DNA of 64,000 bases from Leifsonia sp. TF02-11 (lineage in GTDB: Bacteria; Actinomycetota; Actinomycetes; Actinomycetales; Microbacteriaceae), in the NCBI RefSeq assembly GCF_017565305.1, contig NZ_JAGEKP010000003.1:248001-312000 (forward strand), written 5' to 3'. The position numbers and the translations under genes were made by a program. A model generated the notes under the pieces. It made no database searches. It was not told the origin of the DNA and saw only the letters and a program-made list of their open reading frames with translations. Every line of letters begins with the position of its first letter. Position 1 is the stretch's first letter. Shown piece after piece: positions 43,445 through 61,529 of the stretch.

Positions 43445-43711
43445 TCGGGTGTGAACTTGCCACGCAACGTGTCGTTTGACCGAGCAAAGTGTCGTCGCGT
43501 GATCGGAGCGAGTTGATCGACGAGGATGCTGCGGCCGCGGGCCGTGACCGGTTACTGCTTGCCCAGTCTCCAGGCCGAGCCGCTTGGCGACCTGTCCGGC
43601 ATGAATCGTCATGCTCTGTCCGCGATCGCGGCAGCGCCCGCAGGCGGATAAATGTAACCTCACACGTCGAGGCTTTCAGCCCCTCGAGACATCAGAGACC
43701 GTGGCGCGGTC
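43445..43711. other. Gene-free junction between dnaB and the accessory block
   Basis: No supported reading frame lies here. The first 60 bp carry two GTGTCG words in the phrases AACGTGTCGTTTGACC and CAAAGTGTCGTCGCG, which resembles a worn end of an insertion element, but no transposase is present. GATAAATGTAACC (43649-43661) is an AT-rich patch that could hold a promoter for the operon at 43790. Base composition begins to drop here. Confidence 0.4.
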
Positions 43712-43766
43712 GCTAATAGCGAAGACTTCGTCTTCGACTACCGGTTAGGAACGCTGAGGAGCGCGG
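43712..43766 (+). repeat. Imperfect ~55-bp repeat, left copy (before the sigma/HTH/protease operon)
   Basis: Begins GCTAATA, then after a 13-base dissimilar spacer has CTTCGACTACCGGTT, GGAACGC and ends AGCGCGG. The copy at 45896-45951 has the same blocks in the same order with the same 13-base spacer (11 of 11 identical in CTTCGACTACC). It ends 23 bases before the operon's ATG. It may be a promoter/leader shared with the small gene at 45984, or an att-type duplication. Confidence 0.65.
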
Positions 43767-43789
43767 GTGAAGCCGATGCAGGGCTGTGA

Positions 43790-44320
43790 ATGGTGATCGG
43801 ATACAAGTCGGAGTTGGCGGCCGCGTACAGCCAGCACCGCGAGGTCTTGTACCGCGTAGCATTCGCGCGGCTCAGAGGTGCTGGCCTAGAAGACGAGGTT
43901 GAGGACGTAATCTCAACGGTCATCGTCGAACTGCTTGAAAGGCCGCCCAAAGAGGAGATCCGTAATTGGGAGGCCTACCTCATTACACTCGTGACTCGGC
44001 GGGCGATCGATCGGATCCGCGCGAATTCCAAGCATCGTTCCGACGCGGAATTGGAGTTGCAGGAGGTACGGGACGAGCGCGATGGCTTCATCGAACTTGA
44101 AGAGGGATTGGACACGCTGTCTGCGCTGGAGTCGGTGGAAGCGATTCTCAAAAATCTTGATGAAGTACAGCGGCGTGTGGCCCACGAGTATTTCTGGCTC
44201 AATCGAAAACAGGCCGATATCGCGAACGATCTGAACCTGACGCAGGGCCGCGTCAGCCAGATCATTCAAGAGGTTAGGCGCATTATTCAGCAGCGAATGA
44301 AGGAGGAGGTGAACCGATGA
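43790..44320 (+). CDS. ECF-like sigma-70 family sigma factor
   Basis: This encodes 176 residues with the two-domain layout of ECF sigma factors. Region 2 is about 12-85 (LYRVAFARLRGAGLEDEVED, then NWEAYLITLVTRRAIDRIRA). Region 4 is about 118-172, with a helix-turn-helix RKQADIANDLNLTQGRVSQI. There is no zinc anti-sigma gene beside it; a helix-turn-helix protein and an ImmA-type protease follow with ATGA overlaps, which suggests they control its activity. Third-codon bases are less GC-biased than in the flanking core genes, pointing to horizontal origin. A remote phage-type HTH regulator is the alternative. Confidence 0.8.
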   Translation: MVIGYKSELAAAYSQHREVLYRVAFARLRGAGLEDEVEDVISTVIVELLERPPKEEIRNWEAYLITLVTRRAIDRIRANSKHRSDAELELQEVRDERDGFIELEEGLDTLSALESVEAILKNLDEVQRRVAHEYFWLNRKQADIANDLNLTQGRVSQIIQEVRRIIQQRMKEEVNR

Positions 44321-44886
44321 CCGACAAAGAGGACGACGCATTCTCCCTGGGAAAGCTGCCGCTGGACGCCCTCATCGCCGCAGCGTTGTACCAACCGCCC
44401 GCGCTGGAGGCAGACCCGGGCGCTCACCTTCTCGGATTGGTGAGAGATCCAGCACGGCGGCTCAACACCGCGGAGCTATCGCGGCTACGAAAGAACTCGA
44501 ATCTGACGGTGAGCCAACTGGCGACACGGCTGCAGAGACAAGGGTGGGACGTCTCATCGGGGCAAATCCTGCGCTGGGAAATGAAAGGATCATCCGACGC
44601 GGTCCCGGCCCTAGTTGAGGCTATTGCCTCTGTGTTGGATGTCGACAAGGAGCGCCTGCTCACGCATGGCGACGATAACCAACTCGCCGAATTGAGATCG
44701 TCGGCGAAATTTGGCGAGCTGGTGCAGCGGCTTGCAGCACTCCGCGATGTGTCAATGTCCGCGGCAGCTGCCATGCTGGAGTCACGGTTAGGCGCTGCGG
44801 TATACCGGGGCAACGCCCCCGATCTCGATCAGACATTGCAGTCATTGGAGCAACTCGTGAACGCATTGGAGCAGCGAGACCGATGA
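44317..44886 (+). CDS. XRE-like helix-turn-helix protein in sigma/protease operon
   Basis: This encodes 189 residues. The N-terminal ~50 residues (SLGKLPLDALIAAALYQPPA) are helical and could bind the sigma factor. An XRE-like domain spans about 50-115, with ELSRLRKNSNLTVSQLATRL and GQILRWEMKG. The C-terminal part is helical and leucine-rich, ending in a possible coiled coil (DLDQTLQSLEQLVNALEQ). Translation is supported by a very strong AAGGAGGTGA SD within the preceding gene and the ATGA overlap. ImmA-type proteases classically cut XRE repressors, so this protein is the likely substrate; it may act as an anti-sigma or repressor. That role is inferred. Confidence 0.78.
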   Translation: MTDKEDDAFSLGKLPLDALIAAALYQPPALEADPGAHLLGLVRDPARRLNTAELSRLRKNSNLTVSQLATRLQRQGWDVSSGQILRWEMKGSSDAVPALVEAIASVLDVDKERLLTHGDDNQLAELRSSAKFGELVQRLAALRDVSMSAAAAMLESRLGAAVYRGNAPDLDQTLQSLEQLVNALEQRDR

Positions 44887-45893
44887 TGCTTGAGCGCTGG
44901 GTTCAGAGGGCACTTAGGAAGCTCACTGCTGCCCAGCGTGAACATTTTGCCCTGGACCCACTTCGCTCACTTGGCGATGACCACCGGTTCACCGTCCGAG
45001 CTGTCGAGCACCTGGCTAGCCGGCGAGATCACGGCGGAGGTTGCGACGGAACCTCGTTTCTCGAAGACAACGTCATTCTTTATGCGCCGTCACCCAACAG
45101 CAAACGGCAGAACTTTACCCTCGCTCACGAGCTAGGCCATTGGCTGGTGGAGCAAGATTCTGCCACGCTCGACTGGCTGGCCGACCAGGACGAGCCGCAG
45201 GCTGCGATCGAGTCGCTTTGCGATGCGATCGCGCAACGACTCCTCCTTCCGGAGGACCTAATCGACTACGTCGTCGGCCGACCGATTCGCGCCCAGGACG
45301 TGGTAGCCCTCTTCGAGCAATCGGCCGCGAGCCTGCCTGTGTGCGCTATTGCCGCTGCCGCTCGCCTCCCCCAGCTGGGTGCGGTAATCATCATCGACCG
45401 CCGCACCATGAAGGTGACCTCTTCGAGCGTTCACCCGCACCCAGAGCGCGGTTGGCCGTCGATCTATCCTTGGCCGGGAGAGGAACTGCCGGAAGGCCAC
45501 AGCCTCCGGACCATCGGCTCCGGCGAGACGATCACGCGCCGTTCGTTCTGGCGAAACCGCTGGGGCAAGCGAGCGGATTACTACGTCGACGCAATCGCGT
45601 CCGACCGAGCTATTTGTGCGGTAATTTCTGACACGGATCTGTGGGGCGTGGACACCATGCCGGTACTCATGGATCACGATTACGTTCAACGGCCCGAGAA
45701 CGCCTTTCAATGTTGTGGCGAGTGGCGCACGGTCCGCGGTTTTCCCTGTCCTAAGTGCGGCCGCGGTTATTGCCCCGTTTGCGGGAACTGCCGTTGCACC
45801 ACCGTGTCCAGGAGCGAAGGGCAGTGCCGTAACTGCAACACCATCACTCCGGTCCACCTTCTGGCCGATGGACTGTGTGAAATCTGCGCATGA
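44883..45893 (+). CDS. ImmA/IrrE-type metalloprotease with cysteine-rich C-terminal domain
   Basis: This encodes 336 residues. The zinc protease motif is H82-E-L-G-H86 within QNFTLAHELGHWLVEQ, followed by the usual third-ligand helix (about 108-123, ESLCDAIAQRLLLP). This is the IrrE/ImmA family, whose members cleave HTH repressors to switch on mobile elements or stress genes. The last 60 residues hold 12 cysteines in CxxC-like pairs (277/278, 289/292, 297/300, 303/305, 315/318, 332/335). This suggests two or three zinc ribbons, or a metal or redox sensor. It overlaps the HTH gene by ATGA and ends two bases before the right copy of the 55-bp repeat. Confidence 0.85.
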   Translation: MMLERWVQRALRKLTAAQREHFALDPLRSLGDDHRFTVRAVEHLASRRDHGGGCDGTSFLEDNVILYAPSPNSKRQNFTLAHELGHWLVEQDSATLDWLADQDEPQAAIESLCDAIAQRLLLPEDLIDYVVGRPIRAQDVVALFEQSAASLPVCAIAAAARLPQLGAVIIIDRRTMKVTSSSVHPHPERGWPSIYPWPGEELPEGHSLRTIGSGETITRRSFWRNRWGKRADYYVDAIASDRAICAVISDTDLWGVDTMPVLMDHDYVQRPENAFQCCGEWRTVRGFPCPKCGRGYCPVCGNCRCTTVSRSEGQCRNCNTITPVHLLADGLCEICA

Positions 45894-45895
45894 GA

Positions 45896-45951
45896 GCTAA
45901 TACTTCCTTCGCCCGCTTCGACTACCAGTTGGAAGCGCCGTAGCAGCGCGG
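45896..45951 (+). repeat. Imperfect ~55-bp repeat, right copy (before the 51-aa gene)
   Basis: Shares GCTAATA, CTTCGACTACC, GTT-GGAA, CGC and AGCGCGG blocks with 43712-43766. It starts two bases after the protease stop and ends 32 bases before the ATG of the 51-residue gene, almost the same distance as the left copy to its own gene. Confidence 0.65.
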
Positions 45952-45983
45952 AACACCGCTTCCAGGCAGGAGGTGAAGGACAC

Positions 45984-46139
45984 ATGGCAAAGAACACTGG
46001 ACGCGGATACCGCGTTGGCGCCGTCAAGGGCCGAAGCGAGTTCAAGTCGGGCAACACCTGGTTCAAGCGCAACACTGCCAACGGCCAGATCATGAACGGT
46101 AGCTCCCAGCAGCACAAGGGCGTTCGCAACGAGAAGTAG
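45984..46139 (+). CDS. Small basic conserved protein (51 aa)
   Basis: A 51-residue frame starts at 45984 with a near-perfect AGGAGGTGA SD and ends just before a strong terminator, so it is very likely translated. The product begins MAKNTGRGYRVGAVKGRSEF and ends QHKGVRNEK. From memory, this GxGxRxGAVxGRSQ...KGVRxEK pattern marks a widespread family of short uncharacterised bacterial proteins. It is rich in Lys, Arg, Gly and Asn and lacks hydrophobic segments, suggesting RNA or ribosome binding. It stands behind the right copy of the repeat and may be a target of the sigma factor encoded upstream. Confidence 0.82.
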   Translation: MAKNTGRGYRVGAVKGRSEFKSGNTWFKRNTANGQIMNGSSQQHKGVRNEK

Positions 46140-46144
46140 CCCGA

Positions 46145-46172
46145 GGGGGCCGGCACTCGGCCGCCGGCCCCC
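46145..46172 (+). terminator. Strong hairpin terminator after the 51-aa gene
   Basis: Perfect 10-bp arms GGGGGCCGGC (46145-46154) and GCCGGCCCCC (46163-46172) close an 8-base loop, five bases after the stop codon. Confidence 0.8.
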
Positions 46173-46208
46173 ACTTCGCGAAGCCCAAAGACACCTAGCG
46201 AAAGAAGC

Positions 46209-46862
46209 ATGCATAACATGGACACCGAACACCACACCCCTTCACTCACACACCTCAGGGCATTCACCAATTCCCGCACCAAGGGCCGACCCACGCACGT
46301 CGCCCAGGACCGACGCCAGGTAACCGCACCTTCAAACGACCGGATCTTCGCCTTCGCTTACGAACGGTTCTTGACTGGCGTTGTTGAAGACATCAACAAC
46401 GACTTCACTAGCCGCGCAATGGAGCGCGCAGTCGCTGCCGCACCCGATCGAATGCGGCAGAGCTACCGCGCCGCCGCTGAGGGGATGGCAAGGCTGCTCA
46501 GCGAACTGGAAACGCAGGCAGCGCGGCGCAGACAGCGAAACGTCGTCGTCGTCGACGCCGACGGGCTGGAGCTCGTTAGCTTGCGAATCCATCTGATCGT
46601 CAGCATGCGCGATGGAAGTCGTATCGGAGCGCTTCTCTACTTTTCAGAGAAGGCTCTCACCCCTACCGAGCTCATGCTCATGGATACCGCAGTCGCCTTG
46701 GCTGTCAGGCAGATCGACGCGGAGACAATCCCGGCCATCATCATGGTTCGCACCGGCACTATCCACCTTATCGAAGTGGGCGCCGCCACCGAGCCCGACC
46801 GCGTTCGATTCCTTCGCGCGGAATCCCTGGCTTACCGATCAGAATGGGCTGCAAGCGCCTGA
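46209..46862 (+). CDS. Hypothetical protein in accessory block (217 aa)
   Basis: I do not recognise this 217-residue protein. The first ~45 residues are polar and probably disordered. Residues 50-105 are helical and Arg/Ala-rich (RAMERAVAAAPDRMRQSYRA). From ~112 a compact alpha/beta part begins with VVVVDADGLELVSLRIHLIV, then a second strand pair (IPAIIMVRTGTIHLIEV). There is no signal peptide or membrane segment. A GAAAGAAG RBS precedes the ATG; the Met at 46218 is an alternative start. It follows the terminator of the 51-aa gene, so it has its own promoter. Composition is like the adjacent cassette. Confidence 0.6.
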   Translation: MHNMDTEHHTPSLTHLRAFTNSRTKGRPTHVAQDRRQVTAPSNDRIFAFAYERFLTGVVEDINNDFTSRAMERAVAAAPDRMRQSYRAAAEGMARLLSELETQAARRRQRNVVVVDADGLELVSLRIHLIVSMRDGSRIGALLYFSEKALTPTELMLMDTAVALAVRQIDAETIPAIIMVRTGTIHLIEVGAATEPDRVRFLRAESLAYRSEWAASA

Positions 46863-47116
46863 GGGTCCATTCGACCGGCTCGCGGCAGACTGAGAGCAAC
46901 CACAACGATCGTTTGGTCCGGGCAGAGCGGTCGTGCCATAAGGGGCAGATTGCGGAGGTGTCCGTTGCCGTTGCGGCAGATACCGTCGTGGTGTCCGGCA
47001 ATGACCCCACGAGCTGACCCATTTGCGGAGGTTTCGCCGTTTGTCGCGTGACGACTCATCTAACGAAAGAGCGTGGACATCTTCGTTTCGACTTTCGCCG
47101 TCAGCTCTTGCCGAAG
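46863..47116. other. Gene-free stretch between convergent accessory genes with short direct repeats
   Basis: No coding sign. TTGCGGAGGTGTCCG (46950-46964) and TTGCGGAGGTTTCG (47023-47036) are near-identical direct copies 73 bp apart, with a TGCCG/CGGCA hairpin between them (46966-46978). The pattern recalls recombination or resolvase half-sites of decayed mobile DNA; this is a weak inference. Confidence 0.35.
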
Positions 47117-47860
47117 TTAACTGGATCCGGATGGTGCGTCGGTCGAGCCAGACTGCTCGGCATCCACGTGCATGAGTGATCGCAGCTTCATGTAGCTGGC
47201 GCGTATCTCGCTGAACAGACCGAGATAATTTCCATAGCTCTTCTGCAGTGCCTCCTGCTCCGCAGCGGCCTTTGCCTTCGCTGCTATGTCAGCGCTCTTC
47301 TCCTCCGTGAGGAAGCCCAGCGCCTGCATCATCGTGTTGGCGAACCCCTCGGACTCCACACCATCTCGTAGGCGCCTCAGGACCTCGTCCTGATAATCGG
47401 CTCGGTCCGGAGACATCAAGCGACCCCAATCGTCGCGCATGAGGGCTACATTCACGTCGGAGAGCAGCTTTCTGCCCGCTGCATGCAGCAGAGGAAGCTT
47501 GGTAGCGATCTCGCTGGCGAGCCTGAGTTCTTCAAGATCTGGCGCGGCAGCCTGCCACTGGGCAACAGGGAGGCCATCGAGAGCAGCCCATAACTCCGCA
47601 AATGGGTCGTCCATCGTATGGCTCAGCCAGGGCGGAGTCATAACCTCCTTGGCAACGGCGACGACTACTCTGCTTCGCGCGACTGACCACGATGCCTTGG
47701 CGAAGCTCCTAGCCTGACGTTGCTCAGCAGTCCTCTGCCACAAGTACAGAAAGATGCCGATGGCGAGACCAATAATGGCGGACGAGAGAAGGTCCGGAAC
47801 GAACTGGCTCCAGTCCGCGGGCCATGCGGGGCTACCAGTTGGGGCGGCGATCAGCGTCAC
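47117..47860 (-). CDS. Membrane-anchored hypothetical protein (247 aa)
   Basis: A 247-residue protein with one N-terminal membrane helix (about 25-45: LLSSAIIGLAIGIFLYLW) and a long cytoplasm-facing helical domain. The region ~175-225 is Ala/Glu/Lys-rich with heptad patterning (KSADIAAKAKAAAEQEALQK), a probable coiled coil. No enzyme motif is visible. It lies alone on the - strand within the accessory block, and I cannot assign a function. Confidence 0.6.
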   Translation of the reverse strand: MTLIAAPTGSPAWPADWSQFVPDLLSSAIIGLAIGIFLYLWQRTAEQRQARSFAKASWSVARSRVVVAVAKEVMTPPWLSHTMDDPFAELWAALDGLPVAQWQAAAPDLEELRLASEIATKLPLLHAAGRKLLSDVNVALMRDDWGRLMSPDRADYQDEVLRRLRDGVESEGFANTMMQALGFLTEEKSADIAAKAKAAAEQEALQKSYGNYLGLFSEIRASYMKLRSLMHVDAEQSGSTDAPSGSS

Positions 47861-48323
47861 GCGGAGACACTATCGTGTCGCGTTTCGTCGCGTCGGAGCG
47901 ACAAAGTACTTGGACAACGGCAACGACACATTGCTTGGCAACCTAAGCGATACACCGCTCACAACGACAAGATGCGTGGCCGTTCACATCGGTTGTGCTG
48001 TCGGTCCTCGCGGGGCGCGCAGGGCAACGGGATTACCCCAATTCGCGGGCAATCGCGCATATCTGTGAACGCTCTCGCTTCGTGCACACCTCGGTCAGGG
48101 AGCCCCGGCGTCCGGCGCCTCCGACCACCGAACAGTTGCCCCCGATGCGCCGGCCCTGGTCTGTCGGCGCCGTGGCGAGACTCGCGCTTCCACTCCCATT
48201 CGACCAGGCAGCGCCACCTCCGCTGGGCCAGCGGGATGCGGGAAGCACTTGTCCCCCGATAGAGTGTCACCGTCGCGCCCTTCTGGCGACCAACACCCGC
48301 CCCGATAACCCGAGGAACCCGCC
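47861..48323. other. 463-bp gene-free stretch
   Basis: No frame with convincing start, codon use or RBS is seen. GACACTATCGTGTC (47867-47880), a GACAC/GTGTC palindrome just upstream of the 47860 start, may be an operator for that gene. TTGTCC near 48250 and TAGAGT near 48263 suggest, weakly, a promoter toward 48324. Confidence 0.4.
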
Positions 48324-48707
48324 ATGGCGTCCGCCCACGACTTCTTCCTGCTCGGCGACCACGAGGCCGCCAAGCAACTCGTCACCTCCGCGCTCCAGGC
48401 CGAGGGCTTCACCGTCACTATGACCCCGTCCGGTGGTCTGCTCGCCAAGCGCGGGAGCGCTGCCAGAACCTTCTGGCTGGGTGCCATGGCGGGCAAGAAC
48501 TTCCAGGTGTCCTTCCTCGTCGACTTCATGGTCGATCAGCAGGGCCGCCTGGTCGCGCGCCTGAACCGCAACATGGTGTCAGGGGCGTTGAAGGGCGGAG
48601 CGATCGGCGCCGCCAAAACCGACACGGCGTTCCAGGAGACTGCCAACGCCATCGCTGCCGCCGCCCACCCCGCCGGCATCCTCGGCGACAGCATCTCTCA
48701 GAACTAG
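48324..48707 (+). CDS. Hypothetical protein (127 aa)
   Basis: This 127-residue protein begins MASAHDFFLLGDHEAAKQLV. A short helix-strand opening is followed by a beta hairpin (TVTMTPSGGLLAKRG), a central hydrophobic stretch (ARTFWLGAMAGKNFQVSFLV) and an Ala/Gly-rich end. It contains no signal peptide or catalytic motif. A GAGGAAC RBS lies upstream. It is separated by 42 bp from the DUF4190 gene and may be co-transcribed with it. Function unknown. Confidence 0.65.
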   Translation: MASAHDFFLLGDHEAAKQLVTSALQAEGFTVTMTPSGGLLAKRGSAARTFWLGAMAGKNFQVSFLVDFMVDQQGRLVARLNRNMVSGALKGGAIGAAKTDTAFQETANAIAAAAHPAGILGDSISQN

Positions 48708-48749
48708 CCACCTCACCCACCCCGCATCGCAGATCGGAGTCACCTCGCC

Positions 48750-49055
48750 ATGACCGACCAGAACCCGAATGCTTACCCGCCGGCCGCGCCCGCCTATGCC
48801 CCGTACCCGGCACAGAAGAGCGGCACCAACGTGTTGGCGATCATCGCCCTCGTCGGCGCGTTCGTCTTCCCGCTCGCCGGTGTGATCTGTGGGCACATCG
48901 CCCTCGGTCAGATCAAGCGCACCGGCGAAAGCGGCCGAGGCCTCGCGATCGCTGGCCTCGTCATCGGCTATGTCTACATCGCCTTCATCGTGCTCTTCAC
49001 CGTCCTGGCGATCGTGTTCGCCGCTTCAGCCGGGTACTCCAGCTCCTCCTACTGA
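48750..49055 (+). CDS. DUF4190 small membrane protein
   Basis: This 101-residue protein has a Pro/Ala/Tyr-rich N-terminal cytoplasmic tail (NPNAYPPAAPAYAPYPAQ). Two membrane helices (about 28-50 and 66-92) flank GHIALGQIKRTGESGRGLAI, the conserved DUF4190 loop. Members are common in actinobacteria, often with no known role. It follows the 127-aa gene closely. After it, 288 bp to the next gene contain no supported feature. Confidence 0.82.
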   Translation: MTDQNPNAYPPAAPAYAPYPAQKSGTNVLAIIALVGAFVFPLAGVICGHIALGQIKRTGESGRGLAIAGLVIGYVYIAFIVLFTVLAIVFAASAGYSSSSY

Positions 49056-49343
49056 CCGGCGTCCTCGAAGCCTCCGGCGCCCGCGCCGCCGCTATTACCC
49101 TCGCGCGGACGCCGGGGCTTTCCAACGAGAGCCGACGACCTGGGCCTCGTCTGCACCAACCCGCCGCACTCACCTTCCCCGCCTCCGACGCCCGAAATGT
49201 TGCTCACGGTGCGCCGTTCCCAGCAGTGTGGGCGCAGAAGGCGGGGGAGATGCCCACTACGATTACGTCGCGAATGATCCGACAACAGCGAGTGATCCGG
49301 CAGTGATGAGGCAGGGCGACAGCGTGGCAGGCGAGGAGGCCAG

Positions 49344-49946
49344 ATGACGCAGACTCCGACCGAACTGCTATCCGATCTGCACCATGTCGGGGTCGATGTC
49401 GACGATCTCTGGCAACTTGTGAATACGCGGGAGCGTTACGACGACGCTGTTCCAGTCCTGGTCGATTGGTTGGCTCACCTGGACGAGCGGGTGCCGTATG
49501 AATATCGCGCGCGCATAGAAGAGCCTCTGGTCCGCGCGTTGATCGTGCCGGCGGCGCGGAAGACCGCGCCTCCTGTGCTGATCGAGCGATTCAAGCTTCC
49601 GGAGACCGAACCGCGCAGGAGCGTGCGTTGGGTAATCGGTCATGCTCTGGGGACCCTCGCCGGGGATGAATACTTCTCCGAGCTTGAGGCGCTGGCCCGC
49701 AACTGGACGTATGGTCGAGACCGAGAAGCGATGCTGCGTGCGTTTGGTCGTTCGAAAAACCCTCGTGCCGTTCCGCTTCTCCTCGACCTGCTTGATGATG
49801 AGGATGTCGTCGCACATGCAGTTGAGGCGTTAGGTCCCCACAAAGACCCGCGATCGCGCATCCCGTTGGAACGACTCCTGACACATGAGCGTCCACTCGT
49901 CAGACGGGAAGCCACGAAGGCCCTGAAGAAGCTCCCTGCTGAGTGA
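49344..49946 (+). CDS. HEAT-repeat protein
   Basis: A 200-residue helical-repeat protein. The N-terminal half is charged. The C-terminal half shows HEAT-like units: RSVRWVIGHALGTLAGDEYF, REAMLRAFGRSKNPRAVPLL and VVAHAVEALGPHKDPRSRIP, ending RPLVRREATKALKKL. Such repeats act as protein-binding scaffolds; no enzyme domain is attached. A GAGGAGG SD lies six bases before the ATG. Lower GC and neighbours without core functions place it in the accessory block. Partner unknown. Confidence 0.75.
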   Translation: MTQTPTELLSDLHHVGVDVDDLWQLVNTRERYDDAVPVLVDWLAHLDERVPYEYRARIEEPLVRALIVPAARKTAPPVLIERFKLPETEPRRSVRWVIGHALGTLAGDEYFSELEALARNWTYGRDREAMLRAFGRSKNPRAVPLLLDLLDDEDVVAHAVEALGPHKDPRSRIPLERLLTHERPLVRREATKALKKLPAE

Positions 49947-50122
49947 TGTGTTTGTCTGTGCCCAGGCGCGGCGGGATGAACTGCAGGCCGCTCCCGGTCG
50001 CGTACGGATTCGGCCGGCGCGATTCGCTCGACGCGACCTGGGTCCATCCCGGTGCCGCCATGACGCGCGTGAGGATGGACTGTGCGGCAGCTGCGGCACG
50101 GTGAACCACGCAAGGAGTGTCG

Positions 50123-50269
50123 ATGTCCAACGATCGGAATGAGTCAGCGCCGGAGTCGGGAGGGGACGACGAGGAGCAGACGACGGACGGCTCGGAAGCA
50201 GGGCATCCTGCGGAGAGCATCAGCGACAAGGTGAAGTCGCTTCTTCCCGACGGTTGGTTGGACAGGTAG
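50123..50269 (+). CDS. Small acidic protein (48 aa)
   Basis: A 48-residue frame with AAGGAG five bases before its ATG and a strong terminator 15 bases after its stop. The product starts MSNDRNESAPESGGDDEEQ and ends DKVKSLLPDGWLDR; the first 30 residues are acidic and disordered and the end is a short amphipathic helix. The RBS and terminator support translation. Function unknown. Confidence 0.6.
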   Translation: MSNDRNESAPESGGDDEEQTTDGSEAGHPAESISDKVKSLLPDGWLDR

Positions 50270-50283
50270 GGCGCTCACCGACA

Positions 50284-50316
50284 AGAAGGCCCGGGCTCGG
50301 AGAGCTCGGGCCTTCT
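50284..50316. terminator. Bidirectional terminator between convergent genes
   Basis: Arms AGAAGGCCCGGGCTC (50284-50298) and GAGCTCGGGCCTTCT (50302-50316) pair over 15 bases with one G-U pair and a 3-base loop. It serves the 48-aa gene and the convergent secreted-protein gene. Confidence 0.85.
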
Positions 50317-50336
50317 CGCGTGCGGTGCGACTACGC

Positions 50337-51902
50337 CTACTTGCCCGCCGGGGTCGGCGTCGGCGTCGGCGTCGCGCTCGGCGAGGGCGCCGTCTTCGTC
50401 GTGTTGTCGGGATTCAGCACCTCGGTGTCGGGCGACAGATGGGGGAAGTTCGCGAGCTTGTCGCTCTTGATCGCCCACTGCACATTCTTGCGGTCGTCGG
50501 GGAGTTCGACGTGCACGTTGGGCAGTCTGTAGGTGACGTTCTTGGCGCGGTCGAAGATCAGGACGTCCCCGTCCGCGACGATCAACGGCATCGACACCTG
50601 GACCCAACTCACTTCGCCCGGCTCCACATCCACCGGCATCTTCGCCTCGAAGGTCTTCTCCTCTTTCCACTGGAACTCGTACTTGTTCTTCACCGCGACT
50701 CCGAACTTCTGGCCGAGGATCTTGGCGTCCGTCCGCACGGTGATCTCCAGACCGTACTTGTGCGACATCACGATCTTCTCCTCGATGATGACGTCCGGTT
50801 TCCACACGTGCTTGGTGTAGTTCGCGAAGGAGTACTTCAGCTTGTCGTCCAGCGGTTTGGTCGTCTGCTTCGCATTGGTGAGGTTCACGGTGCAGTCCTG
50901 GCTGTCGATGGAGGTGCAGAAGCGGCTCACGAGGTCGGCCGCGCTCGCTGCGTTCGTCACCACGGTCATGTTCCGGTCGCCGACGACGAGTTCGGCGTCG
51001 TACGTGCCTCGATCGCCGTTGACGGTGTCTTCTCGTGCGACCTTGCAGTCATAGGGAGTGACCTCGTCGCGGCGCAGTTCATCCAGCGGGACGCTGCCCT
51101 TGCCCGGCTGCTGGCTCGTGACGAAGCACGCGGCGTGGTGGTGGAAGATCGCGCCCCGCTCCGTCTGCGACCAGCCGACGACCCAGTAGTTCGTCGGCTT
51201 TCCGCCATCGAAGATGCGATAGCTGAAGCGCGCTCGCGCGAGCGCGCCGTGGCTGATGGTGGTGTCGCCTTCGCGCATCACGACGGCGAACTTCGTGTTC
51301 GCGTTCTCGCCGAGCTTCGGGGATCCGGGTTGGGCGTAGGGAAGGTTGTTGAAGTCGTACTCGCCGTCTGTGAGCGACACGGCGCCGGTGGTGCGCAGGG
51401 TTCCGGATGCCTCGGCGAAGCGGTTCTGCGAGATGGTGAAGACGGCCCGGTTCTTGGCGTCGTGACTGCTGCGGGGCGCCTGGCAGTTCCACTGAGTCGC
51501 GGCCTCCGCCCCGGCGGTACCGGGGCGTCCCTTGTAGATCGAGCAGGAGCTGTCCCACACGCCTCGGGTGTAGTACTGGATCGATGCCTTGACCCAGTAG
51601 CCCGTCGTGTGTCCCACCATGCCGAGCTGGTAGATCAGGGTGCGGGACATGGACTCCGATTTGGGGGCGCTGAGGGTGAAGGCGGTCGCGCCCGACGCCG
51701 GCGCGGCGACGAGAGTGGAGGACGTGCCTCCCGCCGACCCGACGAGCTGTCCATCCGACAGTGTCGTGCGGGAGAGGTTGAAGACCACCTGCGCTGAGAC
51801 GCTGTCGTCGGCGACGGCGGGGCTGGCGGTTCCGGCGAAGCCGGTGAGGATCACGGCCGCGAGGGCCGCGGCGGCTGCGGCGATTTTGGCTGGCGTGGAC
51901 AT
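50337..51902 (-). CDS. Secreted protein of unknown function (521 aa)
   Basis: This encodes a 521-residue exported protein: signal peptide about 1-31 (ALAAVILTGFAGTASPAVAD). A long beta-rich region (about 35-400) with six or so cysteines follows. A segment about 405-450 has alternating polar and hydrophobic residues (KNKYEFQWKEEKTFEAKMPV), and the tail is low complexity (TPTPTPTPAGK). The alternating segment is reminiscent of aerolysin/ETX-type pore formers, but the match is only impressionistic. No catalytic motif or sorting signal is seen. It is followed upstream (51948) by another exported protein on the same strand. Confidence 0.75.
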   Translation of the reverse strand: MSTPAKIAAAAAALAAVILTGFAGTASPAVADDSVSAQVVFNLSRTTLSDGQLVGSAGGTSSTLVAAPASGATAFTLSAPKSESMSRTLIYQLGMVGHTTGYWVKASIQYYTRGVWDSSCSIYKGRPGTAGAEAATQWNCQAPRSSHDAKNRAVFTISQNRFAEASGTLRTTGAVSLTDGEYDFNNLPYAQPGSPKLGENANTKFAVVMREGDTTISHGALARARFSYRIFDGGKPTNYWVVGWSQTERGAIFHHHAACFVTSQQPGKGSVPLDELRRDEVTPYDCKVAREDTVNGDRGTYDAELVVGDRNMTVVTNAASAADLVSRFCTSIDSQDCTVNLTNAKQTTKPLDDKLKYSFANYTKHVWKPDVIIEEKIVMSHKYGLEITVRTDAKILGQKFGVAVKNKYEFQWKEEKTFEAKMPVDVEPGEVSWVQVSMPLIVADGDVLIFDRAKNVTYRLPNVHVELPDDRKNVQWAIKSDKLANFPHLSPDTEVLNPDNTTKTAPSPSATPTPTPTPAGK

Positions 51903-51947
51903 TATCGTGCTTTCTCTTCGATGAACCCGCGGGTGTGTGCGGGTGGC

Positions 51948-52667
51948 TCAGGAGCAGTGGGGGTCCACTGCGGTAAAGGTGACGGTCCAGTCGCGGGGGT
52001 GGTACCCGCCGAGCTTCTGGCCGTCATCCGTTGACGGCGTGACGACCGCGGTCACCGAATTCGTCTCGACGATCACGGTGTAGGGCGTTCCTGGGTCGAC
52101 CACGACCGGGGTCCCGCCGCCGGCGCTGACGGCGTACCGCACGTCGGGGCTGCCGCCGGTGATGAGGAGGGTGCCGTCGTGGCCCGGATCGCTGGAGGTG
52201 CACGACGGCTGGGTCGCGGTCAGCGTGCCGACGGCCACCGACGGGCGGCAGTCGACGCCTGTCGCCGTCGCGCGCGTCGTCTGCTGGGCGTCGCTGCCAC
52301 TCCAGGAGGTCGTGATCGCGATCGCCGCCGATGCCGTGCCGGTCACGGACTGCGTGAAGGTGGTCGTACCCGGCTTCCCTGCTTTCGCTGCGGGGATCTC
52401 CTGGCCGATCGGCGAGGTCAGCAGGTCGAGGGAGCCCGGGCCGGCGAGGCCGTCGATGGCGGCCGGCGTCTCGCGGGAGTTCTCCAGCGTCCACGTCACC
52501 GTGGACGTCGTCCGGTCGGTGGCTGAGCAGTCGACCTTCGACGTGAGGGAGATCCCGTCGTCGGCGGCAGCGCTGGTGGCCACGACGGCCACGACGGCCA
52601 CGCCGGCGCCGAGGGCGGCGACCGCGACACCGACACCGATGCCGATCCAGAGCTTCTTGGCGACCAT
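51948..52667 (-). CDS. Membrane-anchored secreted protein of unknown function (239 aa)
   Basis: The ATG at 52667 is chosen because GAGGTAG lies seven bases upstream and an N-terminal hydrophobic helix follows (KKLWIGIGVGVAVAALGAGV). The rest (about 38-239) is extracytoplasmic, Thr/Ser/Gly-rich and beta-rich, with five cysteines, two of them in DCSATD and DCRPS. Two Ig- or fibronectin-like units are plausible. It lies 45 bp upstream of the 521-aa secreted protein on the same strand, so the two are likely co-expressed. Function unknown. Confidence 0.7.
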   Translation of the reverse strand: MVAKKLWIGIGVGVAVAALGAGVAVVAVVATSAAADDGISLTSKVDCSATDRTTSTVTWTLENSRETPAAIDGLAGPGSLDLLTSPIGQEIPAAKAGKPGTTTFTQSVTGTASAAIAITTSWSGSDAQQTTRATATGVDCRPSVAVGTLTATQPSCTSSDPGHDGTLLITGGSPDVRYAVSAGGGTPVVVDPGTPYTVIVETNSVTAVVTPSTDDGQKLGGYHPRDWTVTFTAVDPHCS

Positions 52668-52794
52668 GTGAGCTACCTCGCTGAAATGGAGAACGGGAAG
52701 GGACGCGGAATCTCGCGTCATCTCCACTCTGGGGTGGCGCCACAGTCGGCGACCATGGACTCAGGTCGCCACCGCGCTGACCTGGGTCGCGTCG

Positions 52795-54099
52795 CTACTT
52801 CTTCTGCGGCGCGAACGGGATGTCGAGGGCGGCAGCGATCGAGGTGAAGACCCGCGTCGCGGGCGAGCTGCACTCCACATCGGTGGGGTTGTCGGTGAGC
52901 GTGCGGGCCTCGCAGGCTCCGGACGGGATGTCGCTGTTGGTCATGGTGATGACGCTGACGTCGCCCGAGGTGCTGTAGAACATCGAGGTGTTGTAGCCGG
53001 GGAGTTCGCCCGCGTGCCCGACCCACCCGTTCTCGCAGCCCCAGCCGAGGCCGTAGCCGCCGTTGCCCGGTCCGTTGAACTCGCGGAACGACCTGAGGCG
53101 CTCGATCTGCTGCGCCGCAGGGAGCAGACCGGCGCCTGTCGCCTCGGCGCGGGCGAAGCGGAGCAGGTCGGGCGCGGATGAGATCAGCTCGCCCGCCGTC
53201 CCGCCCCACGACGGGTTCCAGTCGGTGGTGTTCGCCGGGTGTTCGGGGGTGCCGTGGCCGCCCTGCAGGGTGAAGCCCTGCGGATGGGGCTCAGGATAGG
53301 CCGCGGAGTCCGCCGGGTAGCTGGTCTGCGACATCGCCAGCGGGGTGAGGATGCGCTCGCCGAGGACGCGTTGATAGCTTTCGCCCGTGACGTCCTCGAT
53401 GATCTTGCCGAGCATGATCGTGTTGGTGTTGGAATAGTCGAACGCTGTGCCGGGGGCGAAGTCCTGCGGCTTCAGCGCGAGCCCGATCTTCATCAGCTCA
53501 TCCAGGCTCCACACACGGTACGACTCGGTGAAGTAGACGTTCTGCCAGGCGTCGTCGCGGGTGTAGCTCGAGATCCCGCTGGTCATATCCGCCAGCATCC
53601 GGATCGTGACCTCATCGCCGTTCGTGACCCCGGGGATGTACTTCGACACCGGATCGTCGAGGCTGAGCTCGCCGTCGGCGGCGAGCTGAAGGATCAGCGT
53701 GGCGGTGAAGGTCTTCGTGACCGACCCCACGCGCTGGTACATGTCCGGGGTCATCGGGGCGCCGGTCGCGGGATCCGCGACACCGTACGCCTTGAGGAAG
53801 AGGCCGGCGGGCGATTGCACCGCGACGATCGCTCCCGGCGCCGCGGCCTGGGCGAATCCGGCCTGGGCGGCTGTGTCGATCGTGGCGGTCAGGTCCGCGG
53901 ACATCGCCGTGGTCGGCAGGTCCGAGGTCCGCGCGACCACGGCGGCCGGATCGCTGACGCAGGTGGACGCGATCACGGTCGCGTGGGTCTTCGGGGTGCT
54001 CGTCGCCGATTGCGGTTGCGCGGTGCAGCCGGCGAGGCCCGCGAGGGCGGCGAGGGCGACGGAGAGCGCGAGCGCCTTCGCGAAACGGGGCGGAACCAC
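52795..54099 (-). CDS. R61-type DD-peptidase/beta-lactamase-fold lipoprotein (paralogue 1)
   Basis: A 434-residue serine hydrolase anchored as a lipoprotein (lipobox GLAGC, Cys25). Active-site motifs are S126-V-T-K129, Y222-S-N224 and a GHAGELPG triad in place of HTG. SxxK/YSN/HxG is typical of R61 DD-carboxypeptidases and related esterases. Four further cysteines (in STCVSD, GCENGW, GACEAR, VECSSP) could make two disulfides. The GTG at 54099 has AAGGAG upstream. It is divergent from paralogue 2. Peptidase versus esterase or beta-lactamase activity cannot be told. Confidence 0.88.
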   Translation of the reverse strand: MVPPRFAKALALSVALAALAGLAGCTAQPQSATSTPKTHATVIASTCVSDPAAVVARTSDLPTTAMSADLTATIDTAAQAGFAQAAAPGAIVAVQSPAGLFLKAYGVADPATGAPMTPDMYQRVGSVTKTFTATLILQLAADGELSLDDPVSKYIPGVTNGDEVTIRMLADMTSGISSYTRDDAWQNVYFTESYRVWSLDELMKIGLALKPQDFAPGTAFDYSNTNTIMLGKIIEDVTGESYQRVLGERILTPLAMSQTSYPADSAAYPEPHPQGFTLQGGHGTPEHPANTTDWNPSWGGTAGELISSAPDLLRFARAEATGAGLLPAAQQIERLRSFREFNGPGNGGYGLGWGCENGWVGHAGELPGYNTSMFYSTSGDVSVITMTNSDIPSGACEARTLTDNPTDVECSSPATRVFTSIAAALDIPFAPQKK

Positions 54100-54264
54100 G
54101 ACGGTCTCCTTCGGACGGGTACACGGGATGCACCACACTCTCGCGTCGGTGGATCCCGCTCCGGAATGGACCTAGGCCTATGTCGGCGCAGCGACGCGGC
54201 CGGAACACTGGGGGGACCCGTGGAGTTTCGAACCGCCGCGGCACGCCGCAAAGGGGAAATCGAA

Positions 54265-55488
54265 GTGTTGGCAACGACCCGTAGTCGTCGAGCCCGCCGG
54301 TCGGTGTCGGCGGCAGGCGTCCTCGTCGCGCTCGCCGTGGTGTTGGCCGGCTGTGCGGCGAGCGGACCTGTTCGCGGCACGTCTGCGAGCCCGGTAACGG
54401 TCGATGCGACCACTCTGAACGCGGAGTTCGCCCGGCTGGCCAAGAGCCTGCAGGTGCCGGGAGCCGCGATGCTCGTACGCGGCCCGGGCGGCGAGGTCAC
54501 CGCGACATACGGCGTGACCGAGCTCGGAGGGTCGACTCCGGTGTCGCTCGCCGACCACTTCCGCGTCGGCTCGAACACCAAGACCATGACGGGCACCGTC
54601 ATCCTGCAGCTCGTGCAGGAGGGGAGGATCGCCCTCCACGATCCCGTCTCGACCTACCTGACGAACGTGCCGAACGGCGACCGCATCACGATCGAGCAGC
54701 TTCTCGACATGCGCAGCGGCCTCGCCAACTACACGGCGACTCTCGCGCTGAACACCGCGCTCGACGAGGAGCCGCAGCGTGTGTGGACGCCGGAGGAACT
54801 GGCAGCGATGGGCCTCGCCGAGAAGCCGAACTTCGCGCCGGGCGACGACTGGTCGTACTCCAACACGAACACCGTCCTCCTCGGCCTGATCGCGCAGAAG
54901 CTGGAGGGCGAACCGCTGAGCGCCATCTTCGAGAAGCGGCTGTTCGAACCGCTGGGTCTGCACCAGACCTCCCTCCCCGCGGCGGCGGACGCCGCGCTGC
55001 CGGAGCCGTACACGCACGGCTACATGTATTCGAACAACGTCGACACGATGGAGTCGGCGAAGCTGCCGGCTGACGAACTGGCCCGTGCGAAGGCGGCCAC
55101 GCTACTGCCGAGCGACCAGACGAACCTCAATCCGTCCTGGGCGTGGGCGGCCGGAGGGGTGATCTCGACCATCGACGATCTGGCGAAATGGGTCGAGGCG
55201 CTCGGTGGAGGTCGGCTGCTCGACGCGAAGCTCCAGAAGGAGCGACTGGCCAGTGTCCGCACGGTACCGGTCGACCTCCCCGACCCCCGGTACGGCTGGG
55301 GCATCGCCAAGATCGGGCAGCTCTACGGTCACACGGGCGAGCTGCCCGGGTTCAACTCGTTCATGGGCTACGACCCGGCGCACCGCGTCACGATCGTCGT
55401 CTGGACCAACCTCGCCCCGGCCGCCGACGGCAGACCGCCCGCGGCCACGATCGCCACCCGCCTCATGACGAGCATCTACGGAGGATGA
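54265..55488 (+). CDS. R61-type DD-peptidase/beta-lactamase-fold lipoprotein (paralogue 2)
   Basis: A 407-residue lipoprotein (lipobox VLAGC, Cys30) with S103-N-T-K106, Y198-S-N200 and the GHTGELPG triad, all intact. It lacks the four extra cysteines shared by paralogues 1 and 3, so it belongs to another subgroup. The GTG at 54265 is supported by AAGGGG eight bases upstream; a TTG follows directly and is possible. It ends one base before the ATG of paralogue 3, forming an operon. It probably trims peptidoglycan stem peptides outside the membrane. Confidence 0.88.
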   Translation: MLATTRSRRARRSVSAAGVLVALAVVLAGCAASGPVRGTSASPVTVDATTLNAEFARLAKSLQVPGAAMLVRGPGGEVTATYGVTELGGSTPVSLADHFRVGSNTKTMTGTVILQLVQEGRIALHDPVSTYLTNVPNGDRITIEQLLDMRSGLANYTATLALNTALDEEPQRVWTPEELAAMGLAEKPNFAPGDDWSYSNTNTVLLGLIAQKLEGEPLSAIFEKRLFEPLGLHQTSLPAAADAALPEPYTHGYMYSNNVDTMESAKLPADELARAKAATLLPSDQTNLNPSWAWAAGGVISTIDDLAKWVEALGGGRLLDAKLQKERLASVRTVPVDLPDPRYGWGIAKIGQLYGHTGELPGFNSFMGYDPAHRVTIVVWTNLAPAADGRPPAATIATRLMTSIYGG

Positions 55489-55489
55489 C

Positions 55490-56770
55490 ATGACCTCGAC
55501 GCCCCTGTTCCGCGTGGCGGCCGCCACCGCGATCGTCGGCGTTCTCGCGCTCGCCGGATGCACTGCACAGTCCGACCCCGTCCCCTCGGCGTCCACGACC
55601 CCTGCCGCGGCCGGGTGCGTGGCGAACCCGTCGGCGGCCGCCTCCGCCAAACCCGGTGATCACGCGAAGTCCGCGCTGCCCGCCAAGACGGTCGCCGCCC
55701 TCGACGCAGCCGCGACGAAGGCGTTCGAGCTCGGCGCGTCCCCCGGTGCGATCGTGGGGGTGCGCACGCCGCACGGCACCTGGACCAAGGCCTACGGCTC
55801 GGCGAACCCCGCCACCGGCACGCCCATGGTCGTAGGAATGCACACCCGCATCGCGTCACTGACGAAGATGTACACCGCGACGATCGTCCTCCAGCTCGCC
55901 GAGGAGAGGAAGCTCTCCCTCGACGACACGATCGGCAAATACATCCCCGGCATCCCGAACGGCGATCGGATCACCCTCACGCAGCTCGCCGACATGACGA
56001 GCGGCATCGCCAGCTACACGATGAACGAGGCGCTCCTCGACAAGTACTTCGCCGACCCCTCTGCCGTGTTCACACCGGAGGAGGTCGTGAAAGCGGGCGT
56101 CGAGCTCTCGCCGCTGTACGAACCGGGAACGAGCTTCAACTACTCGAACACGAACACCGCGTTGCTCGGTCTCGTGATCGAGAAGGTCACAGGCCACTCG
56201 ATCGCCGAGGAGCTGCAACAGCGCATCTTCGACCCGCTGCACCTGGGCAACACCTCGTGGCCCGGCACGTCGGCCGCGATCCCCGAGCCATACGCCCACG
56301 GGTTCACGCTCAACGGCAACCATGCGACGCCCGACGCCCCGACGGACTCCACGGACTGGAACCCGTCGTGGACGTTCACCTCCGGTGAGATCATCTCCGA
56401 CATCGACGACCTGCTGACGATGGGTCGCGCGCTGGGCACCGGACAGGGCCTGGTCGACGCGAAGACCCAGAAGGCGCGACTCACCTCGTTCTCCGAGATC
56501 GGCTACGGATTCGGGATGAGCTGCTCGAACGGGTGGGTGGGGCACACCGGCGACGTGTCGGGCTACAACACCTCCCTGTTCTACGACACCAGCACCGACA
56601 CGACGGTGGCGGTGCAGACCAACAGCGATATCGCCTCGGGCGGCTGCACGCAGTCGCCGACGCTGACGGACGACCCCGGCGACGCCGTCTGCCAGACGCC
56701 CGCCGTGCGGCTCCTGGTCGCTCTCAGCGGTCAGCTGGGCACGGCCTACGCGCCGCCGCCGCGGTCGTAG
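55490..56770 (+). CDS. R61-type DD-peptidase/beta-lactamase-fold lipoprotein (paralogue 3)
   Basis: A 426-residue lipoprotein (lipobox ALAGC, Cys23) with S122-L-T-K125, Y217-S-N219 and GHTGDVSG. Like paralogue 1 it has four extra cysteines (AGCVAN, MSCSNG, GGCTQS, AVCQTP) at equivalent places. It shares the NTNT sequence after YSN and the GFTL-G-H block, so paralogues 1 and 3 are the closest pair. It starts one base after the paralogue 2 stop and converges with the response regulator gene. Confidence 0.9.
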   Translation: MTSTPLFRVAAATAIVGVLALAGCTAQSDPVPSASTTPAAAGCVANPSAAASAKPGDHAKSALPAKTVAALDAAATKAFELGASPGAIVGVRTPHGTWTKAYGSANPATGTPMVVGMHTRIASLTKMYTATIVLQLAEERKLSLDDTIGKYIPGIPNGDRITLTQLADMTSGIASYTMNEALLDKYFADPSAVFTPEEVVKAGVELSPLYEPGTSFNYSNTNTALLGLVIEKVTGHSIAEELQQRIFDPLHLGNTSWPGTSAAIPEPYAHGFTLNGNHATPDAPTDSTDWNPSWTFTSGEIISDIDDLLTMGRALGTGQGLVDAKTQKARLTSFSEIGYGFGMSCSNGWVGHTGDVSGYNTSLFYDTSTDTTVAVQTNSDIASGGCTQSPTLTDDPGDAVCQTPAVRLLVALSGQLGTAYAPPPRS

Positions 56771-56797
56771 CCGGCGTCGGTCCCGGCGACGGTCCCG

Positions 56798-57463
56798 TCA
56801 GCGGTCTTCGTCCGCCACCGACGCGAGGAACCGGATGACGGCGAGCACGCGTCGGTGGTCGTCGGCATCCGGGGGCAGACCGAGCGCCGTGTAGATGTTC
56901 GACGTGTGCTGAACGACCGCCTTCTCGGTCAGGAACAGCTGACTCGCGATCCGCGCGTTGCTGCGTCCCTGCGCCATGAGCGAGAGGACTTCGAGCTGGC
57001 GGGGCGTGAGCGACCCCACTGCTCCACTGGCACGGCTCGCTCGCGCCACGAGCACCGACACCACCTCGGGGTCGAGCGCCGTCCCACCCGCGGCGACCCG
57101 GCGCAGGTCGGCGGTGAAGGTGGTCACGTCGGCGATGCGCTGCTTGAGGAGGTAGCCGAAGCCGCCGATGTTCTGATCGAAGAGCTCGGTCGCATACCGC
57201 CGCTGCACGTACTGCGAGAGCACGACGACCGGGATGGCGGGAGCCGACTCGCGGATGCGGAGGGCAGCGAGCAGCCCCTCGTCGGTGTGGGTCGGAGGCA
57301 TCCGGATGTCGGTGATGACGAGGTCGGGATGGAGCAGGGCGACCTCGCGCAGGAGGGATTCGGCATCGCCGGCGACGGCCGCGACCTCGAAGCCTTCGTC
57401 GGTGAGCAGGTGTCGCAGGCCTTCGCGCAGCAGCACTTCGTCTTCGCCGATGATCACGCGCAT
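56798..57463 (-). CDS. LuxR/NarL-family response regulator
   Basis: A 221-residue regulator. The receiver domain (about 1-120) has the phospho-acceptor D52 in DLVITDIRMPP and a conserved lysine in GYLLKQRI. The C-terminal NarL helix-turn-helix is LTPRQLEVLSLMAQGRSNAR with LTEKAVVQHTSNIYTALGL. Its start overlaps the end of the sensor kinase gene by 10 bp, defining the cognate pair. Targets are unknown; the adjacent lipoprotein genes are candidates by position. Confidence 0.93.
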   Translation of the reverse strand: MRVIIGEDEVLLREGLRHLLTDEGFEVAAVAGDAESLLREVALLHPDLVITDIRMPPTHTDEGLLAALRIRESAPAIPVVVLSQYVQRRYATELFDQNIGGFGYLLKQRIADVTTFTADLRRVAAGGTALDPEVVSVLVARASRASGAVGSLTPRQLEVLSLMAQGRSNARIASQLFLTEKAVVQHTSNIYTALGLPPDADDHRRVLAVIRFLASVADEDR

Positions 57464-59256: not shown

Positions 59257-59414
59257 GGGTCGGGGCCGCGTCCTCCTGGAGGGGAATGAGGGTTCTACCC
59301 ACATGATCGTGGTCCGGTGGTGGGCGCGGCAATGGATCTGGGTCGGGTGTGCCGACGGTCGTCGCCGAGAGTGCCGAGCTACCGCGTCGCGCGTTCACGG
59401 CGTAGCTTCGCACC

Positions 59415-60658: not shown

Positions 60659-60690
60659 CCGGTCAGACTAGGGCGCGCCGAGCCGAGCTC

Positions 60691-61086: not shown

Positions 61087-61181
61087 GGATGCTCTCCGTT
61101 CGTCGGTCCTCGTCAGAACGTCGAACGAGAGCGGGCGTCAACGACACATCGGACGAAACGACGCCGGGATAGGATCGCGGC

Positions 61182-61439: not shown

Positions 61440-61529
61440 CCGAGGGGCGACGGCGAGAGTCGCCGGGCCGGCGGCGGAATCATCCTGCGGACTGACGCGG
61501 ACGGCTCGCTCTTCGCGTGGAATGGGAGG

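Follow-up and report, generated by a model that had tools for sequence, protein, structure and literature searches.

A candidate ECF sigma-factor controller with twin promoter elements and variable, often immune, cargo in actinobacteria

Gene pairs encoding a helix-turn-helix (HTH) protein and a metalloprotease of the M78 family occur on mobile DNA, as in ImmR/ImmA of ICEBs1, for which we know of no sigma factor. In the PprI (IrrE)/DdrO system of Deinococcus, DdrO is a direct repressor of a damage regulon. Sigma factors of the extracytoplasmic function (ECF) type come with anti-sigma partners, and such pairs include cases of regulated proteolysis of the anti-sigma factor. Here we describe a locus that combines these components. 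It lies in a 64,000-nucleotide stretch of Leifsonia sp. TF02-11 (contig NZ_JAGEKP010000003.1, positions 248,001 to 312,000, forward strand; henceforth the window), where genes for an ECF-type sigma factor, an HTH protein and an ImmA/IrrE-type M78 protease (the trio) form a cassette with two copies of a promoter-like element, followed by a small gene, S38, and by variable genes that we call cargo.

In bacterial immunity, CapW, CapH+CapP and CapK+CapS have been named 'controllers of associated/adjacent pathways'; these controllers of the cyclic oligonucleotide-based antiphage signalling system (CBASS) and of Bub operons are repressor-based, and 219 of 544 Bub operons carry CapW or CapH+CapP (accessible text of PMC13373217). 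PprI is activated by single-stranded DNA (ssDNA), and its authors note a likeness to CapP/CapH (accessible text of PMC10904395). An ECF sigma gene has also been placed inside predicted counter-invader loci, near the EACC2/caspase and TRADD-N conflict systems (accessible text of PMC8195603).

Against this background, comparison of the window with its relatives brings out a conserved trio, twin elements that are nearly exclusive to it and vary in concert, and a variable, often immune, cargo. We consider it moderately probable that the cassette is a portable, self-amplifying sigma switch, in which the sigma factor is kept in check by the HTH protein until a signal leads the protease to remove the latter.

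The trio and its twin promoter elements

All three genes are on the plus strand of the window. The sigma gene (43790..44320) encodes 176 residues, the HTH gene (44317..44886) a 189-residue candidate sigma inhibitor, and the protease gene (44883..45893) 336 residues with a HELGH motif, a GAF-like part and a Cys-rich C-terminus. A first-pass annotation, made from the sequence alone, had joined them by two ATGA overlaps, both confirmed by the coordinates of the open reading frames (ORFs), and had pointed to an atypical base composition, which also holds: the cassette has 60.3% GC vs 66.5% in the window, and third-position GC is 68–69% across the trio vs 90–91% in dnaB and rplI. According to Pfam, NCBIfam and profile comparison the sigma product is full length and consists of regions 2 and 4 only (TIGR02937, E 1.4e-16; Sigma70_r2 and Sigma70_r4 above the Pfam cut-off), the family profile matching SigL (6dv9_F) across positions 9–175.

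The same annotation had named a trio that is not conserved elsewhere as grounds for giving up its proposal. The sigma, HTH and ImmA genes stand side by side in 43 of the 44 loci of the family (about 39 distinct), a set made up of the window, four order-level loci, three plasmids and 36 loci from a collection of species genomes (L034–L069); three loci were reached twice (L004/L068, L005/L047 and L006/L046). Within the species collection, tblastn detects sigma and HTH genes beside ImmA in 35 of the 36. In the 44th locus (L066) the ImmA protein is 33% identical, the sigma gene is labelled by blastp and no HTH relative is detected by tblastn; by eye, one gene there has a comparable N-terminal region. 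Relatives of the sigma, HTH or S38 proteins at E 1e-3 were absent, within the flanks searched (often no more than 1.5 kb per side), from all 80 other ImmA loci, which comprise 24 weak actinobacterial, 44 remote and 12 viral-contig loci. Gene junctions in the trio span −49 to +14 nt, with start codons chosen by us.

The distribution is wide and patchy. Among 297 genomes of the order, 27 have some ImmA match in protein searches and only five, including that of the window, a relative that is full length and at least 50% identical; a genome of the same family (G193) and Agromyces subbeticus share the same cassette locus. A scan of the species genomes yielded 101 relatives; the best 80 were kept. 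The quartet, S38 included, is present in the same gene order on plasmids of Prescottella, Pseudarthrobacter and Nocardioides, and overall the trio spans many actinobacterial families, on chromosomes as well as plasmids. The HTH family itself is rare, being found in four of 396 genomes of the phylum: two hold trios (G000 and G825), one another arrangement (G659, see below), and the fourth is G430. On the Nocardioides plasmid, pCHL (L033), transposase genes lie 5' of the quartet, and erm and aminoglycoside phosphotransferase genes are annotated close by.

The window cassette itself lies in a 17.2-kb stretch adjoining dnaB (43449..60690, strand not assigned) that is missing from a genome of the same genus (G851, L157), where the flanks are 17 nt apart. 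The interval 43449–61537 found no match in the stretches compared from G855, G844 and G852. Elsewhere in the 17-kb stretch, at 52795–59304, we noticed by eye three adjacent ORFs for CubicO/beta-lactamase-like serine hydrolases, followed by a response regulator ORF and a histidine kinase ORF.

Repeats of about 55 bp had been reported to flank the cassette. Their length did not stand up, since what repeats is a 23-bp block at 83% identity; that duplicated sequence flanks the trio did. What the family conserves is a 29-bp promoter-like element, CTAATN17CGACTAC, present in two copies on the plus strand. Promoter U (43713..43741), 5' of the sigma gene, has its −35 CTAAT at 43713–43717 and, after a 17-nt spacer, its −10 CGACTAC at 43735–43741; promoter D (45897..45925), 5' of the output genes, repeats this with CTAAT at 45897–45901, 17 nt of spacer and CGACTAC at 45919–45925. 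The geometry and letters of CTAAY-N17-CGACTAC fit ECF promoters, and U and D appear to be two copies of one bipartite element of this type.

The element is closely tied to the trio. CTAAY-N16-18-CGACTAC has two matches in the 5.09-Mb genome, both at the cassette, with none for the backwards control, and shuffling the window 100 times never produced the element. Across 12 more trio genomes CTAAC-N16-18-CGACTAC gave 18 matches, all at the cassette, against three backwards-control matches; one of the 12, that of L055, has no exact match, both of its sites reading CGTCTAC. A survey of the 43 loci, allowing one mismatch per half and a spacer of 16–17, located the element 5' of the sigma gene in 42 (L044 lacks a U site) and between ImmA and output in 39. 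The other four are L040 and L041, in which S38, next to the sigma gene on the opposite strand, has a copy of the element to itself, and L063 and L069, in which the protease gene or the contig ends early. Background amounted to 36 matches in 1.009 Mb (0.007 per 200 nt), a figure that includes the two relocated S38 promoters. When spacers of 10–25 were scanned, the length was 17 in 62 cases, 16 in four and 10 in one. Near other ImmA genes there was no copy in 80 kb of weak actinobacterial loci and one in 487 kb of remote loci, and 59 kb of six S38 plasmid loci outside the trio family held none. In L040 and L041 the promoter and S38 are placed beside the sigma gene as if they were one unit (5281–5433 and 5152–5304, respectively, minus strand).

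Within loci, the two sites change together. Among 31 non-redundant loci the 5-nt −35 is identical at U and D in 27, vs 17.4 when shuffled (none of 20000 shuffles was as high), and the −10 in 26, vs 23.0 (p 0.025). Variants common to both sites are CTAAT in the window, CTAAA in L056, L057 and L067, and CTTAC in L061 and L062. This comparison used 35 of the 43 loci, collapsed to 31 (L040, L041, L044, L060, L063, L064, L065 and L069 were left out). We have fair confidence that the encoded sigma factor reads the twin promoters, in which case the system would feed back on itself. The earlier proposal of a sigma-based switch is supported by the matching promoters ahead of the sigma gene and of the output. 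Candidate explanations that we set aside were a larger regulon, none of which was seen with exact patterns in the 13 genomes, and a structured RNA in the repeats, whose folding z-scores are −0.4 and −1.7 and for which Rfam gave only one sub-threshold match, on the hairpin that follows S38.

Conserved bases beyond the −35 and −10 are found mainly at D, as TGAGAG past the −10. They could be an activator contact and, given how tightly the sigma and HTH genes are coupled, would suit an HTH protein that assists the sigma factor, as a co-activator or by guiding it to DNA, with the protease switching the system off. We regard this as very improbable: these bases may equally be initial transcribed sequence, and the M78/HTH pairs known to us work by repressor removal.

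The HTH protein, the protease and the proposed switch

The HTH protein of the window matches HTH_31 at E 3e-4, under the Pfam cut-off, and no anti-sigma family in Pfam or NCBIfam; Pfam likewise gave no anti-sigma match in L066, L137 or L138. An AlphaFold2 model (mean predicted local distance difference test, pLDDT, 81; predicted template modelling score, pTM, 0.52) displays a weak N-terminal part, an XRE HTH at about residues 51–117 and a C-terminal helical bundle. Its core fits the HTH domain of CapH (7t5u) over 64 columns with a root mean square deviation of 1.2 Å and probability 1.00. The PADLOC scan returned no CapH-named match, the presence of a CapH model in that library being unchecked.

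The N-terminal region of about 75 residues carries the motif PPLExDPVAxxLGL in the family and is shortened in the window, the motif being kept as PPALEADP-A--LGL. In searches with the HTH alignment, this region also starts a 307-residue protein of G659 (L138; E 2.3e-6, positions 4–74) that has no HTH match. The gene of this protein lies directly 3' of another ECF sigma gene (region 4 above the Pfam cut-off) and overlaps it. Two proteins of 304 and 311 residues (in G835, L144, and G515, L143) match only positions 3–58 and 4–47 of an N-terminal model that already included the L138 protein (E 3.2e-4 and 1.8e-4), and an overlapping sigma-like gene, recognised by eye, precedes each of them. That the region recurs in proteins encoded after sigma genes is the best hint that it binds the sigma factor. 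A RecF/SMC-like ATPase gene, again identified by eye, follows the gene of the ~305-residue protein in L138, L143 and L144; sigma gene, ~305-residue protein and ATPase make up a second sigma-coupled arrangement, possibly an undescribed conflict system.

The main rival to the switch, which we judge unlikely, has the HTH protein as a classical DNA-binding repressor like CapH that blocks both promoters, the sigma factor being constitutively active and the protease only removing the repressor. It would accord with the XRE-type HTH conserved across the family, with the match of the HTH model to the CapH domain, and with PprI/DdrO and CapP/CapH, which act by repressor removal (accessible text of PMC10904395). 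That structural match is, however, shared equally by other XRE domains, and every Foldseek E-value for the model is above 0.09; the N-terminal region, moreover, occurs after a sigma gene in L138 in a protein without an HTH. A repressor model is also weakened by the missing dyad: no covarying dyad was seen in 35 D and 36 U sites (L004, L005, L006 and L063 left out, identical sites collapsed), a test that an invariant or degenerate operator would escape.

The protease of the window matches Peptidase_M78 (E 4.9e-8), above the curated cut-off, and PADLOC capP (E 1.6e-16 over 49–216), and the family profile aligns with PprI/IrrE structures through both the M78 and the GAF-like parts (8slm over 55–250, E 6e-13; 3dte over 52–249, E 3.4e-9). 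Its model (pLDDT 87, pTM 0.74) is helical to about residue 160, then strand-rich, then Cys-rich at the C-terminus. Invariant in 31 aligned rows are H82, E83, H86, E110, C54-D55-G56 and eleven C-terminal cysteines. A phage or provirus origin was considered and dropped: there were no phage matches for ImmA or S38, and viral contigs yielded only 12 weak, partial ImmA matches.

Taken together, a sigma switch of this kind might operate as follows. The ECF sigma factor would direct RNA polymerase to U, its own promoter, and to D, that of the output (S38 and the variable cargo). The HTH protein, co-translated with it, would hold it back while the cell is at rest, probably by direct binding through the N-terminal region. 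A signal, perhaps ssDNA by analogy to PprI and CapP or some other sign of infection, would be sensed by the GAF-like and Cys-rich parts of the protease; once active, the enzyme would cut or remove the HTH protein, and the freed sigma factor would induce cassette and cargo together. We are less confident of inhibition by the HTH protein, of its removal by the protease, and of DNA damage or infection as the signal than of the promoter assignment.

S38 and the variable cargo

S38 (45984..46139, plus strand) encodes a basic protein of 51 residues, the PADLOC candidate PDC-S38 (E 1.7e-12, residues 1–51 over model positions 1–57), that also matches phrog_12550 (E 2.2e-9). The first-pass annotation had seen in this small basic gene the output of the cassette, which is borne out in 31 of the 43 loci, where it is the first gene after promoter D; it was not found in eight, stands on the opposite strand in two, and two incomplete loci are undecidable. 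In the eight (L035, L050, L053, L055, L056, L057, L060 and L067) the element lies directly before the cargo, and S38 thus seems dispensable. Directly past its stop codon the window has a GC-rich hairpin without a T-run (46145..46172, plus strand), a possible attenuator or mRNA end. Such hairpins follow S38 in 31 loci, duplicates included (mean z −3.2 vs base shuffles), were not clear in L033, L049 and L052, and are strong 3' of S38 in four of six sigma-less plasmid loci (L129–L132). The hairpin may set a high ratio of S38 to cargo.

What follows differs from locus to locus. CBASS or ubiquitin-like operons come after the promoter in 21 of the 43 loci, one of them reached twice. Ubiquitin-like/E1 operons account for 15, of which 14 were recognised by E1 clustering and L067 by eye, with L004 and L068 being one locus. 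Supporting matches are ThiF in L033 (E 2.7e-23) and Multi_ubiq in L057 (E 1.2e-12) and, below the cut-off, in L033 (0.0058); L067 has a JAB-like match below the cut-off (E 0.0016) and an E1-like gene without a Pfam match. CBASS makes up the other six, with patatin, CD-NTase and E1-E2 in L039, L042, L047 and L048 (L047 scanned), HNH-SAVED and CD-NTase in L062, and Cap15 and CD-NTase in L043. Further cargo includes a Cas2-like gene (E 0.0018, below the cut-off), DUF3892, HNH, a PDC-M36A-like protein and genes without a recognised family. Only representatives were scanned with Pfam and PADLOC, and the other loci were assigned through blastp clusters of mechanically called ORFs.

Cargo appears to be exchanged beneath related controllers. 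In a controller tree of 39 of the 44 rows (L005, L006, L063, L066 and L069 left out), L061, with ubiquitin-like cargo, has the CBASS locus L062 as its sister (100/100), and the ubiquitin-like L004/L068 are nested among DUF3892 loci (100/98). The trio would then be a module moving between actinobacteria and placed before differing, often antiviral gene sets. A defence role, which the first-pass annotation had suggested, finds support in the relatives, through their CBASS and ubiquitin-like cargo, but not in the window's own cargo. There, the candidate cargo gene (46209..46862, plus strand) encodes 217 residues without a recognised family; the scans gave no family match, plasmids and PDB no match, and 197 genomes one weak match besides itself (L135, E 9.6e-4).

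It could be objected that the cassette serves maintenance or transfer of a plasmid or island, in the manner of ImmR/ImmA, and that immune genes are merely frequent neighbouring DNA. Its patchy distribution, its presence on plasmids and in a variable stretch, and a window cargo without a defence family would fit. Since the promoter points into the cargo, however, and this so often is an operon of the CBASS or ubiquitin-like kind, we find such an account very improbable.

S38 occurs beyond the family as well: 22 plasmid records carry it, of which three are the trio plasmids, and six others that we inspected have no annotated sigma cassette. On an Acinetobacter plasmid, S38 and the next gene face an HTH and ImmA pair, and a direct repeat is visible by eye 5' of S38. 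On three Rhodococcus plasmids (L129–L131), the genes ahead of S38 are an ImmA gene and a small gene on the opposite strand, and a GTTTCG..CGAAAC palindrome, seen by eye 5' of S38 at 6001, is a possible repressor operator. Clavibacter michiganensis pCM2 (L128) has, at 5001–5168, an S38 gene that a DUF2188 gene follows, no HTH, ImmA or sigma gene being annotated beside S38 and AbiE-like genes lying a few kb away. On a Nostoc plasmid no HTH or ImmA gene is annotated beside S38 in the stretch covered, and a CBASS cyclase is nearby. Such sigma-less loci look like a natural contrast, the same output standing under what may be repressor control.

Several observations weigh against a sigma switch restrained by the HTH protein, the wider occurrence of S38 among them. 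The −35 differs between U and D in four of the 31 loci (L006, L034, L038 and L049), common ancestry or gene conversion might account for part of the concerted variation, and the distant relatives L066 and L137 yielded no element common to U and D. The window is itself not a typical member: its sigma factor is 19–34% identical to the 30 others aligned, and in the controller tree it is a long branch (0.93) whose cargo has no recognised family. Its HTH protein is some 30 N-terminal residues shorter than the family and matches only positions 44–76 of the N-terminal model (E 1.2e-4). L143 and L144 share only the first half of that region and the window the second, so that the link of the window runs through L138 and the family and is not direct. 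Finally, the HTH core is conserved, and the protein may itself bind DNA.

If the proposed switch is true, bacteria would have a hitherto undescribed means of turning on immunity, and control through a sigma factor would make activation sharp and self-amplifying. The promoter could be used as a bar code: CTAAY-N17-CGACTAC beside a trio would point to the genes controlled, including those for the 217-residue, Cas2-like, DUF3892 and S38 proteins, turning candidate defence genes into testable predictions and providing reporters for what the protease senses. More tentatively, at nearly even confidence, we propose an undescribed class of immune controllers in which an ECF sigma factor is held by an HTH-containing anti-sigma factor until, upon infection or DNA damage, a soluble CapP/PprI-like protease destroys the latter, with positive feedback inducing interchangeable CBASS, ubiquitin-like and other effector operons through one dedicated promoter; the sigma-binding region would be reused with the RecF/SMC-like ATPase, and S38 would be a general accessory of protease-controlled immune loci.

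Comparison with known systems

The first-pass annotation knew of no described system with this layout. Our literature search recognised none either, within a reach that left out most subscription papers. In ECF sigma/anti-sigma systems, as here, a two-domain ECF sigma factor has matching promoters before its own gene and its targets and a translationally coupled downstream partner; the partner in the cassette, by contrast, carries an HTH and has no match among the anti-sigma families of Pfam and NCBIfam, and the protease is a soluble M78 enzyme and not a membrane site-1/site-2 pair. With the EACC2/caspase and TRADD-N loci the cassette shares the ECF sigma gene; no ImmA protease or cassette HTH family is described for them in the accessible text of PMC8195603, and their cargo is different.

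Among protease systems, ImmR/ImmA of ICEBs1 resembles the cassette as an HTH and M78 pair on mobile DNA. PprI (IrrE)/DdrO does so in the order of M78 and GAF-like domains and in the pairing of the protease with an HTH partner, whereas it is not known to include a sigma factor and the two sites of the cassette are in one locus. The nearest known kind, which the first-pass annotation did not mention, appears to be the CapH+CapP controller. In both, an HTH and M78 protease gene pair precedes exchangeable operons, which are immune ones in 21 of the 43 loci of the cassette family, the window protease matches PADLOC capP, and the modelled HTH core resembles that of CapH as it does other XRE domains. 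Unlike CapH+CapP, the cassette adds an ECF sigma gene and an ECF-type promoter element at the output, its HTH protein has an N-terminal region also found after another sigma gene, and no covarying operator dyad is seen at its promoters; the Cys-rich C-terminus of its protease is a possible further difference. The cassette would work much like such a controller, extended by a sigma factor and by an HTH protein that likely acts against it.

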